NCBI RefSeq assembly: GCF_013403925.1
Contig: NZ_JABFDJ010000003.1
Location: forward strand, 248,001-312,000
Direction: 5' to 3'
DNA from: Winogradskyella wichelsiae
GTDB taxonomy: Bacteria; Bacteroidota; Bacteroidia; Flavobacteriales; Flavobacteriaceae
Length of the DNA: 64,000 nt
Made by a program: the position numbers and the translations under genes. Every line of letters begins with the position of its first letter. Position 1 is the first letter of the stretch. The notes below the pieces were generated by a model. It did not search any database. It saw only the letters and a program-made list of their open reading frames with translations, and was not told where the DNA came from. Shown here one piece after another: positions 33,463-35,885 of this stretch.

Positions 33463-34605
33463 TTAAGGTTTTAATGAGATTTCTTCATTATCTATCATTA
33501 CGAAAACGATTTCGGAACCTAGTATTAAGTCAGAATGGTCTAATGTTGTTACCGTAGAACCATTTGCATCTATTTCCTTATGTCCAAATTTAGGGCTTAA
33601 CTCAGTTATGGCATCAACAACAGGAACAAACCGTAATTCACTAGAAATCAACACTTCTTTATACTGAATAGCCACATCAACAAGCGCCCCCATATCAGAT
33701 CGTTTCACATTTCTGATTATAATATCGTTAAAAAGCTTACCGTTTTCAGGAATGGAAAAATAAGATTTATAGTTTTCTGGCTCAACGTTATCAATAAGAA
33801 CATCTAGACCTTTAAGAATGGCAATAAACATCAATCTTCTCACCTCTTCTCTGTCGTAATCATTGGCATAATGGCCGGCTTCATATAAAAGTGTAGGAAC
33901 ACCAAAATTCTGAAAGGTATCTCCTACGCAATTTAAATTAAAGCCATCATCATAGCGCCCTATCCCATTAGGAATTTCGTCCTGTAATAATCTATTGATT
34001 TCAGCTATTATAACCATAGCAGCCTTCCTATTGGCTGTGAGCGTGCGCTCTGAGTCTTGCGCTGGTGACAAAAACGATAATGTAGCTACATGGTTTGTTT
34101 CACCAGCACTAAACAATGTGCGTTGACCATGAAGATTAAAACAATAATCGGGCTTCTCTATATAGTAAGCTTGTCGAAGTATTTCGCTTTCGGGTTGAGT
34201 AAGGTCTTGAGCATCCCTATTTAAGTCCACTAAATTAGCATTTAAACGCGTGTAACGCTCTGCACCGTCGGGGTTTAATATAGGGATAACAACCAAAGTA
34301 CAGTGCTCTAAAAGACGTTCAGCTGTTTTATTGCCAGTTTCAAAAAGATTAAAACAATCAAACAGTGCTTTAGTAGAGGTAGATTCATTACCGTGCATCT
34401 GTGACCATAATAGAACTTTAATTGCACCATGTCCATAGGTTAAACTATAAATTGGTCGGTTTTCTACAGAATAACCTAAGGTCTTTTTTATTGGTTTTAA
34501 GAGCTTATCTAAACAAGGTTCTATATGAGAATTAGTAATGTAACGACCATGCAATTCTGGTGTTTTTACTTCAGTATACAAGGTGTTTAAAAGATCTAAT
34601 TTCAT
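33463..34605 (-). CDS. M14-family zinc carboxypeptidase
   Basis: A 380-residue metallocarboxypeptidase-like protein. The first zinc motif HGNEST gives His71 and Glu74. IPILNPDGAERYTRLNANLV carries the substrate-binding Arg/Asn region. YCFNLHGQRT gives the third zinc ligand, and the proton-shuttling Glu is in PTLLYEAGHY. No signal peptide is visible, so it acts in the cytoplasm, like other short M14 proteins of Bacteroidota that may trim peptidoglycan or small peptides. The C-terminal 90 residues form a beta-rich accessory domain. It diverges from the XRE gene, and operator-like repeats cover its predicted promoter. Confidence 0.85.
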   Translation of the reverse strand: MKLDLLNTLYTEVKTPELHGRYITNSHIEPCLDKLLKPIKKTLGYSVENRPIYSLTYGHGAIKVLLWSQMHGNESTSTKALFDCFNLFETGNKTAERLLEHCTLVVIPILNPDGAERYTRLNANLVDLNRDAQDLTQPESEILRQAYYIEKPDYCFNLHGQRTLFSAGETNHVATLSFLSPAQDSERTLTANRKAAMVIIAEINRLLQDEIPNGIGRYDDGFNLNCVGDTFQNFGVPTLLYEAGHYANDYDREEVRRLMFIAILKGLDVLIDNVEPENYKSYFSIPENGKLFNDIIIRNVKRSDMGALVDVAIQYKEVLISSELRFVPVVDAITELSPKFGHKEIDANGSTVTTLDHSDLILGSEIVFVMIDNEEISLKP

Positions 34606-34621
34606 AGGACTATTTTGTTGG

Positions 34622-34633
34622 TTACAAATGTAA
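34622..34633. promoter_or_regulatory. operator-like repeat O1 over the M14 promoter
   Basis: TTACA-AA-TGTAA is an inverted repeat with 5-bp arms. On the minus strand it contains TACATTTG (34632-34625), a -7 box 20 nt before the M14 start. A TTG at 34651-34649 is a possible -33 element with a spacer of 16. Confidence 0.6.
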
Positions 34634-34644
34634 TCATTTAACTA

Positions 34645-34658
34645 TTTACAATTGTAAA
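34645..34658. promoter_or_regulatory. operator-like repeat O2, perfect 14-bp palindrome
   Basis: TTTACAATTGTAAA is self-complementary over all 14 bases. It defines the consensus TTTACAnnTGTAAA to which the four neighbouring sites conform with few mismatches. It overlaps the predicted -33 region of the M14 gene. Confidence 0.65.
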
Positions 34659-34679
34659 CAACTGATTTCAATCGACAAG

Positions 34680-34691
34680 TTACATTCGTAA
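34680..34691. promoter_or_regulatory. operator-like repeat O3
   Basis: TTACATTCGTAA has 4-bp arms (TTAC/GTAA) with one off-consensus base in each half of the wider motif. It is followed by ACA, extending the right half-site. Confidence 0.45.
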
Positions 34692-34867
34692 ACACCTAAT
34701 ACTTTCTATACGCCATCAATATAACAGGTAGATTCTAAATCTTATTAGTTTTTAATAAATTGCACTTAAAACATTATATATCAGTTGATTTAAGGTGTTA
34801 ACAGAACAAAGACTTTAATAGTTAATTACTAAAGAAACTCTTTACTTAGGATATATTAATCATATTG

Positions 34868-34881
34868 TTTACATTTGTGCA
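34868..34881. promoter_or_regulatory. operator-like repeat O4 over the XRE -7 box
   Basis: TTTACATTTGTGCA matches the left half of TTTACAnnTGTAAA exactly and the right half with two mismatches. It contains TACATTTG (34870-34877), a -7 box for the XRE gene, giving a start near 34884. Confidence 0.55.
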
Positions 34882-34902
34882 AGCGACTAATACTACAAAT
34901 TG

Positions 34903-34916
34903 TTTACAATGATAAA
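34903..34916. promoter_or_regulatory. operator-like repeat O5 over the XRE start codon
   Basis: TTTACAATGATAAA lies within the longer inverted repeat TGTTTA...TAAACA (34901-34918). The ATG at 34909 is in its centre, so binding would block elongation, and the same hairpin could mask the start codon in the mRNA. Confidence 0.6.
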
Positions 34917-35352
34917 CACTGAAGAATTTACAAAACGTTTACAAAAAGTTATAGATTTTTACAACGAATCCGCATCTAGTTTTGCCGAAAAAATAGGTGT
35001 ACAACGCTCTAGTATTTCTCACATTTTATCTGGAAGAAATAAACCAAGTTTAGACTTTGTTATGAAAGTTTTAGACACATATCCTGAGGTAGAATTATAC
35101 TGGCTCTTAAATGGCAAAGGAACATTTCCATACCACCCTAACACTCCCCAAGCGCCAATACCTAAAACACAAGAACCAATAACACCAGCGACTCCAAATC
35201 TTAAACTACCTCCCGAAATTCACAAACAAGAAACCGAAACCAGACACAATGAGCCAACACCAAATTACAATCAGAATCTAGGTTTAGATTCTGAAATAGA
35301 AAAAATAGTCATCTTTTATAATAATGGAACTTTTAAGAGCTATAAGCCTTAA
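34909..35352 (+). CDS. XRE-family transcriptional regulator
   Basis: A 147-residue regulator. The N-terminal helix-turn-helix spans about residues 7-60, with SASSFAEKIGVQRSSISHIL as its helices 2-3 and SGRNKPSLDFVMKVLDTYPE as helix 4. YWLLNGKGTFPY closes the domain. A proline-rich disordered linker follows (residues ~70-120, TPQAPIPKTQEPITPATP-like), then a short C-terminal strand ending VIFYNNGTFKSYKP, which resembles the tail used for multimer contacts. I prefer ATG 34909 to the TTG at 34900. Five inverted repeats in the divergent intergenic region suggest it represses itself and the M14 peptidase gene. Confidence 0.85.
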   Translation: MINTEEFTKRLQKVIDFYNESASSFAEKIGVQRSSISHILSGRNKPSLDFVMKVLDTYPEVELYWLLNGKGTFPYHPNTPQAPIPKTQEPITPATPNLKLPPEIHKQETETRHNEPTPNYNQNLGLDSEIEKIVIFYNNGTFKSYKP

Positions 35353-35392: not shown

Positions 35393-35779
35393 ATGAAACT
35401 ACTCTTACCTATACTCGCCCTATGTTTATTAACCAGCTGCTACACAGCAGAACGTAATTGTTCTGATTTTAAAACAGGAACTTTTGAGTTTAGTTACACC
35501 ATAGACGGTACTGAGCGAACAAGCCGATTCAAGAGAACAGAAGACCTTAATATAGATTACCATGAAGGAGTTGAAGATTCTTCTTCTGTAAGATGGATTA
35601 ACGACTGTGAGTTTATTTTAAAAAAACTACACCCAACAAGTAATGCTGAAAAAGAAGCGATCCACATGAAGATTCTTTCTACATCTGAAGATTCATATAC
35701 TTTCGAGTACAAACGCGCTATAAAGAGAGCTAATAGACCTTCTCGCGTAGAAAAAGGTACAGCAAGAAGAGTCAATTAA
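35393..35779 (+). CDS. small lipoprotein of unknown function
   Basis: A 128-residue protein with a signal peptide and lipobox (LALCLLTSCYT), so the lipidated residue is Cys16. The mature part contains FKTGTFEFSYTIDG, an RFKRTED strand, SSSVRWINDCEFIL and a C-terminal EKGTARRV. It reads as a compact beta-rich domain with one further pair of cysteines (near residues 22 and 72). It is convergent with parC and ends at a shared terminator. Database entries for such proteins may carry topoisomerase labels from that neighbourhood, which the sequence does not support. Confidence 0.75.
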   Translation: MKLLLPILALCLLTSCYTAERNCSDFKTGTFEFSYTIDGTERTSRFKRTEDLNIDYHEGVEDSSSVRWINDCEFILKKLHPTSNAEKEAIHMKILSTSEDSYTFEYKRAIKRANRPSRVEKGTARRVN

Positions 35780-35823
35780 AACCTACAAGATCTAGAACAA
35801 CAAGGAAGTGGGTTTTTAATTAT

Positions 35824-35863
35824 AAAAAAAGCTGAAGTGATTTCTATCACTTCAGCTTTTTTT
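35824..35863. terminator. bidirectional terminator between the lipoprotein gene and parC
   Basis: A perfect 10-bp stem, GCTGAAGTGA / TCACTTCAGC (35831-35840, 35847-35856), has a 6-nt loop, with an A-run before and a T-run after. Confidence 0.92.
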
Positions 35864-35885
35864 ATAAGGAAAATAATTAATAAGA

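Follow-up and report, generated by a model that had tools for sequence, protein, structure and literature searches.

A proposed repressosome at a divergent XRE/M14 peptidase locus of the Flavobacteriaceae, with two operator clusters in helical register

In Winogradskyella wichelsiae, the gene for a short regulator of the XRE type (147 aa; positions 34909 to 35352, plus strand) stands back to back with a gene for an M14-family zinc carboxypeptidase (380 aa; 33463 to 34605, minus strand), and 303 bp separate the M14 start codon at 34605 from the XRE ATG at 34909. Positions throughout are those of the window, the whole 64-kb stretch of DNA that was analysed. The original prediction for this locus placed five palindromic operators in the intergenic region and proposed a compact autoregulated module. 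The question that the locus raises is what five operators would do in this region, and what governs the way in which they are spread over it.

The operator array and the putative promoters it covers

All five predicted operators are present at their positions in the window. On the M14 side, site 1 (34619 to 34636; core 34621 to 34634, with GTTACAAATGTAAT at 34621) is kept in relatives, site 2 (34643 to 34660; core 34645 to 34658, with TTTACAATTGTAAA at 34645) is a perfect palindrome, and site 3 (34677 to 34694, with GTTACATTCGTAAA at 34679) forms the inner edge of the cluster. On the XRE side, the inner edge is formed by site 4 (34866 to 34883, with TTTACATTTGTGCA at 34868), and site 5 (34901 to 34918, with TTTACAATGATAAA at 34903) contains the XRE ATG, as had been claimed. 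Allowing at most two mismatches, TTTACAnnTGTAAA occurs at 23 places in the window, five of them within the 303-bp intergenic stretch, where 0.086 would be expected (Poisson P = 3.6e-8); any other 303-bp stretch that starts at a site holds at most two. When three mismatches are allowed, the excess over the whole window is slight (158 places where 127 would be expected). A further site, with two mismatches in the 18-mer, was observed within the M14 coding sequence (34563 to 34580).

Comparison of orthologous intergenic regions, which had been suggested as a check, showed the sites to be conserved in relatives, and their alignment extended the original 14-bp core to an 18-bp palindrome, TGTTTACnnnnGTAAACA. 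Site 1 lies 24 bp from site 2 in the window; this is also the commonest gap between adjacent strong sites in relatives (149/459), and 446 of the 459 such gaps below 80 bp measure 13-14, 22-25, 32-36 or 44-47 bp, steps like those of the spacer described below. The 24-bp spacing in 170/173 loci is not independent evidence, since a distance of 23-25 bp from site 2 was itself the rule by which site 1 was called. In eight loci from outside the genus, sites 4 and 5 lie about one turn (~10 bp) further upstream, at about -45 and -10, and retain their 4-5 spacing of 35-36 bp.

Promoters were called by consensus only, using the -7 consensus TAnnTTTG of the original prediction. By this measure, and as had been predicted, operators cover both putative promoters in the right orientation: a putative M14 -7 box, TACATTTG, lies inside site 1 (34625 to 34632, minus strand), and a putative XRE -7 box with the same letters lies inside site 4 (34870 to 34877, plus strand). 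Among the relatives, site 1 carries TAnnTTTG on its minus strand in 164/173 loci (plus strand, 3/173), and site 4 carries it on its plus strand in 159/166 (minus strand, 3/166). From these counts both sites look like composite operator/-7 boxes. The consensus is rare in site 3 (plus 14/152, minus 13/152) and in site 5 (plus 9/173, minus 1/173), and site 2 carries it on the plus strand in 49/173 loci and on the minus strand in 43/173. The original prediction had also worried that the motif might be a chance overlap with the -7 consensus; sites 3 and 5 argue otherwise, since they keep the palindrome in relatives, mostly without TAnnTTTG. In five own-genus loci the palindrome of site 1 has decayed and TAnnTTTG is kept, with another site 10 bp closer to site 2.

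The XRE protein, the M14 peptidase and their distribution

The XRE protein matches the HTH_3 family (PF01381) at 32 bits against a gathering cut-off of 23, and the peptidase matches Peptidase M14 (PF00246) at 45.6 bits against 21.6. Narrower assignments were tried and rejected. The murein tripeptide amidase MpaA (NF007897) gave 19.6 bits against an equivalog cut-off of 157; the RstR phage repressor (NF041951, 18.5 bits against a subfamily cut-off of 80) and the HigA antitoxin (TIGR02607, 16.9 bits against an equivalog cut-off of 47.7) likewise fell short, and a toxin-antitoxin or phage-repressor identity for XRE was set aside on these family cut-offs. Residues 1-74 of XRE, which hold the HTH, and the C-terminal tail are conserved, and the linker is variable. 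The proline-rich linker of the original prediction is a feature of this species; relatives vary in linker length and composition and conserve the tail. The tail (35290 to 35349, plus strand) is predicted to form a beta-hairpin with strands at residues 133-136 and 142-145, and I130, I133, F136, Y137, G140 and F142 each occur in at least 90% of 94 sequences. In the AlphaFold monomer, pLDDT exceeds 90 over residues 1-70, drops to block means of 52-63 in the low-confidence linker and is about 85 in the hairpin. Foldseek returned weak E-values (best 0.005, probability 1.00) to HTH proteins such as C.AhdI, the 434 repressor and SinR. SinR and C.AhdI (HTH_3, PF01381) share the DNA-binding domain with XRE, the top matches aligning over about 50-73 columns at the HTH, but leave its linker and hairpin unmatched.

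The first three residues of XRE, Met-Ile/Val-Asn (34909 to 34917), are near-invariant (N3 in 180/181), perhaps as a result of the overlap between operator 5 and the start codon. Downstream of XRE lies what we take to be a small lipoprotein-like gene (35393 to 35779), followed presumably by a gene of the topoisomerase IV subunit A type; between the two, a strong hairpin that has runs of A and T (35820 to 35870), on which the best low-scoring Rfam sRNA matches fall, is probably a two-way terminator.

At E 1e-15 or better, the XRE protein is found in 282/299 Flavobacteriaceae genomes and 193/203 genera, with one match per genome; a search of 60 relatives, own genome counted, was positive in 51, and the own genome holds a single match. 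M14 is divergent from XRE in all 184 loci in which it was detected. The 11 of 195 loci without a detectable M14 comprise three cut by a contig end or by the limit of the fetched stretch, and the rest come from other families. Every family locus with XRE (181/181) has at least two sites of score 9 or more, and 172 have at least four. We also searched 25 genomes for M14. Eight full-length homologues (42-51% identity), from genomes without an XRE hit, were scored, and the array is absent upstream of all eight, one alone carrying a single site (score 13.3). Another genome, counted as XRE-less in the family search, has a diverged XRE (34% identity) with two sites 177 bp apart, one of them at the XRE start, and the others gave fragments, distant paralogues or no match. 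By this comparison the array goes with the XRE gene. The 34 loci examined from other families of the order do not give a uniform picture. Six of them, none with an M14 detected next to XRE, carry one site close to the XRE start and another 179-202 bp away; in many, clusters stand near the XRE start alone; and in some (among them L187, L189, L311 and L316) the sites are all weak.

The original prediction had also called for a genome-wide search for other targets, and this yielded little excess over the reversed control: at two mismatches or fewer the 18-mer gave 40 sites, four of them at this locus, against 36 for the reversed pattern. A paired-site pattern gave 43 forward matches in the 60 genomes, of which, among the places listed, eight lie elsewhere and the rest at this locus; its reversed control gave 11 altogether. 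These searches give no clear sign of a wider regulon. One more paired-site match, on a short contig of one genome, is an apparent second copy of the locus. The proposal of a compact, autoregulated, divergent XRE/M14 module is thus supported, because the sites are conserved in relatives and the array is absent in the eight XRE-less cases, and because the six other-family loci with M14 undetected keep sites near XRE and there is no clear wider regulon. Autoregulation of the module is, as far as comparison goes, well supported. What the original prediction missed is the helical register of the two clusters and the DNA loop to which it points.

Spacer length in helical steps

The spacer between the clusters (34695 to 34865) is mostly unconserved in sequence. 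Among 29 own-genus loci the start codons nonetheless lie 301-305 bp apart, and among relatives the length of the spacer moves in steps of a helical turn. For the measurement of these steps, site 3 was taken as the best site at 18-52 bp from site 2, and site 4 likewise from site 5, and the analysis covers the XRE/M14 locus only. Eight of the 181 family loci were left out (two cut by a contig end, six failing the site rules), as were 28 of the remaining 173, in which site 3 or site 4 was not called; a separate analysis was made of 14 loci from other families. One locus (L020) lacks sites 1-3 for a technical reason, since its contig begins with what is presumably a sequencing-adapter remnant.

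Comparison shows the site 3-4 distance to be quantised. It falls within 2 bp of 10.5n in 142/145 loci, against about 43% by chance, the exceptions measuring 186, 174 and 176 bp. Seven loci fall at 168-170 bp, 64 at 174-180, 60 at 186-190, 10 at 198-201, three at 208-212 and one at 233, and the intervals 181-185, 191-197 and 202-207 are empty. The residual standard deviation is 0.97 bp, against about 3.0 for a uniform distribution, and regression gives a step of 10.4 bp per turn. Best-fit periods differ somewhat by pair (10.3 for sites 2 to 4, 10.6 for 3 to 4, 11.1 for 2 to 5); at a pitch of 10.5 bp sites 3 and 4 lie whole turns apart, placement on the same face depending on the pitch assumed. 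The prediction of helical steps was written before 137 of the loci, 123 of them in the family, were retrieved (L063-L199), and in these the site 2-4 distance (n = 109) has a period of 10.3 with R = 0.82, where a jittered null reaches at most 0.40. A second, named collection of 80 loci, from which three failed the rules, 13 were exact duplicates and eight of the remaining 64 lacked site 3 or 4, has 54/56 site 3-4 distances within 2 bp of 10.5n; duplicates were dropped only if the 280 bp upstream were identical, and close strains may remain among the 56. In both collections, then, separated operators stand in fixed helical register.

On a tree of XRE plus M14, turn class changes 31 times by parsimony. 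Length differs by 0-3 bp in 59 of the 72 nearest locus pairs, by 4-7 bp in none and by 8-12 bp in seven, and the remaining differences of 14, 16, 21, 22, 43 and 46 bp occur once each; of the 13 pairs that differ by at least 8 bp, four (8, 14, 16 and 46) misfit whole turns by more than 2 bp. Simulations of indels along the tree, when matched to the spread only, reached the observed periodicity in 0/1000, 29/999 and 0/1000 runs, the 29/999 being for uniform indel sizes, and with length bounds and the observed 63 changes they did so in 0/1000 under each of three models. The distance from site 1 to the M14 ATG, considered as a control, was not useful: one peak dominates its distribution and the other modes are minor (n = 166, R = 0.60 at 10.4 bp). 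We also observed that longer XRE proteins accompany longer spacers (turn class of at least 19), with a mean of 142.5 aa in the 19-turn class (n = 10) against 131-132 aa in classes 17-18, a relation confounded by kinship.

A hidden gene or RNA in the spacer was considered and rejected: the spacer holds no ORF of 20 aa or more except the start of XRE itself, no RNA structure was found in it (z 0.95 and 0.65), Rfam gave no match at gathering score between 33400 and 35900, and the length steps are not multiples of 3. The whole-turn register of the two clusters points to a DNA loop, for which we regard it as strong sequence-only evidence.

A proposed loop, its alternatives and its relatives

We consider it probable that the locus forms a repressosome like that of GalR and HU: a short XRE protein, ending in a conserved hairpin, would bridge two operator clusters and repress both promoters. 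The XRE protein, presumably as a dimer, would bind the 18-bp palindrome, and dimers on sites 1-3 and on sites 4-5 would bridge the clusters, most likely through the conserved beta-hairpin. Bridging would close a loop some 190 bp long (mostly 16-20 turns, depending on the species), in which the putative -7 boxes of both genes, in sites 1 and 4, would be covered along with the XRE start region in site 5. With these elements covered, XRE and M14 would be repressed together in an autoregulatory repressosome; we infer repression here rather than activation. A counterpoint is the long flexible linker of the AlphaFold model, which would relax the need of the protein contacts for phasing, though DNA twist would still matter.

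A protein of the HU/IHF family would probably bend the DNA near the loop apex, at a central conserved element (ATCAGTTGATTTA, 34780 to 34792, plus strand) that resembles the core of the IHF consensus. IHF sites have the consensus WATCARNNNNTTR; the likeness lies in a TCAR-n4-TTA core near the apex of the spacer, whereas here the base before TCAR is mostly T and extra conserved bases lie downstream. A pattern modelled on the IHF consensus, [AT]TCA[AG]....TT[AG], was searched for anywhere in the spacer and occurs in 107/145 spacers (113 matches); shuffles gave 11 loci on average, the opposite strand 11, two scrambles 15 and 3, and the reversed pattern 14. It is missing from 38/145, and the window's own copy of the element misses it at the last base. 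In the set used to represent loci outside the genus (L035 onward, which includes five own-genus loci) it occurs in 87/118. Of the 113 matches, 96 start 94-96 bp ahead of the centre of site 4; a free search for TCAG alone places it 93-95 bp ahead of site 4 in 90 cases and 104-105 bp ahead in six. Distances from the element to site 3 are mostly 84-85 or 94-95 bp, then 73-74 and 105-107, with singles elsewhere. By these distances, most whole-turn changes fall on the site 3 side of the element, which itself sits about midway along the spacer. An alignment anchored on the element (135 loci; offsets of 83-84, 93-96 and 104-106 only were admitted) has TCAR, TTA at +8 to +10 and more conserved bases as far as +37. 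The window's 34799-34818 matches the conserved TTA, TAAAGT and TTnA at +18 to +37, which lie beyond the IHF-like core and are not accounted for by it. The own genome encodes two HU/IHF-family proteins, neither of which scores above an NCBIfam cut-off for IHF or HU.

Register would matter equally if the whole of the roughly 290 bp were wrapped as a compact nucleoprotein particle, by an XRE oligomer or by HU/IHF together with XRE and with no discrete bridged loop, because all dimers would then have to face one protein surface. The step of about 10.4 bp shared by spacings within and between clusters is consistent with such a particle, as are the 38/181 family loci with 6-8 sites of score 9 or more and, in some species, extra sites upstream of site 4. 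In five loci (L082, L102, L105, L140 and L165) such a site lies 35 bp upstream of site 4, at about -68 from the XRE start. The other 143/181 loci, however, have only 2-5 such sites, so the spacer is usually not filled, and we judge a wrapped particle unlikely. We give still less credence to the reading in which phasing serves promoter geometry, through two divergent RNA polymerases or supercoiling coupling, with XRE a local, non-bridging repressor. With the putative -7 boxes in sites 1 and 4, the distance from promoter to promoter is quantised too; yet the spacings of sites 3 and 5, mostly without -7 boxes, also shift in one-turn steps, and the six other-family loci with M14 undetected beside XRE retain a second site 179-202 bp off. 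That a different DNA-binding protein occupies the sites, with the XRE gene no more than a target, is conceivable insofar as we infer XRE to be the binder, but it is highly improbable given the co-occurrence of array and XRE gene (181/181 against 0/8), the single XRE match in the own genome and the few excess sites genome-wide (40 against 36).

Returning to the bridged loop, one may plausibly guess that the inducing signal is a peptide on which M14 acts. A bolder version, in which M14 trims the XRE tail or a signalling peptide, so that the output of the peptidase would open its own loop, and in which a repressosome bridged by the hairpin would be near-universal in flavobacteria, we regard as a long shot.

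The system to which we compare this loop most directly is the gal repressosome of E. coli, formed by GalR plus HU. GalR is a LacI-family protein, whereas here a 147-aa XRE protein has a beta-hairpin tail, the sites form clusters of three and two, and the genes are divergent. The likeness lies in two operator positions that bracket promoters, in whole-turn spacing and in the repression of two promoters, which is shown for gal (PMC4693257) and proposed here. The same study places HU at the loop apex and reports that gal repression is best at 103, 113, 123 and 133 bp, is lifted at half turns, and persists in loops of up to 19 turns (PMC4693257). The gal spacer is 11 turns and the spacer here is mostly 16-20; by analogy, this natural series of spacers is the evolutionary counterpart of the gal spacing series. 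Looping between OL and OR by lambda CI combines an XRE-type HTH with multi-site operators, autoregulation and C-terminal bridging, and the XRE module would share all four, bridging being what we propose here. Lambda CI uses a globular domain and bridges kilobases, whereas the protein here has a short hairpin tail and the proposed loop of about 190 bp lies on the chromosome. A literature search on helical-turn spacing in NrdR returned no paper, and that precedent is not used here.

Our literature searches on the XRE/M14 module, whose XRE protein would be a nearly universal flavobacterial regulator with a minimal bridging module, found no earlier description of it; the one paper returned concerned RelE/ParE toxins. 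From sequence data by themselves, the comparisons make a case that a small DNA loop forms in these bacteria, a family in which a narrow literature search found no looping repressor. Evolution has in effect run a helical-phasing experiment over many genera, in which one-turn changes were repeated and fractional turns are rare, and this suggests a route to finding such loops by genome comparison alone.
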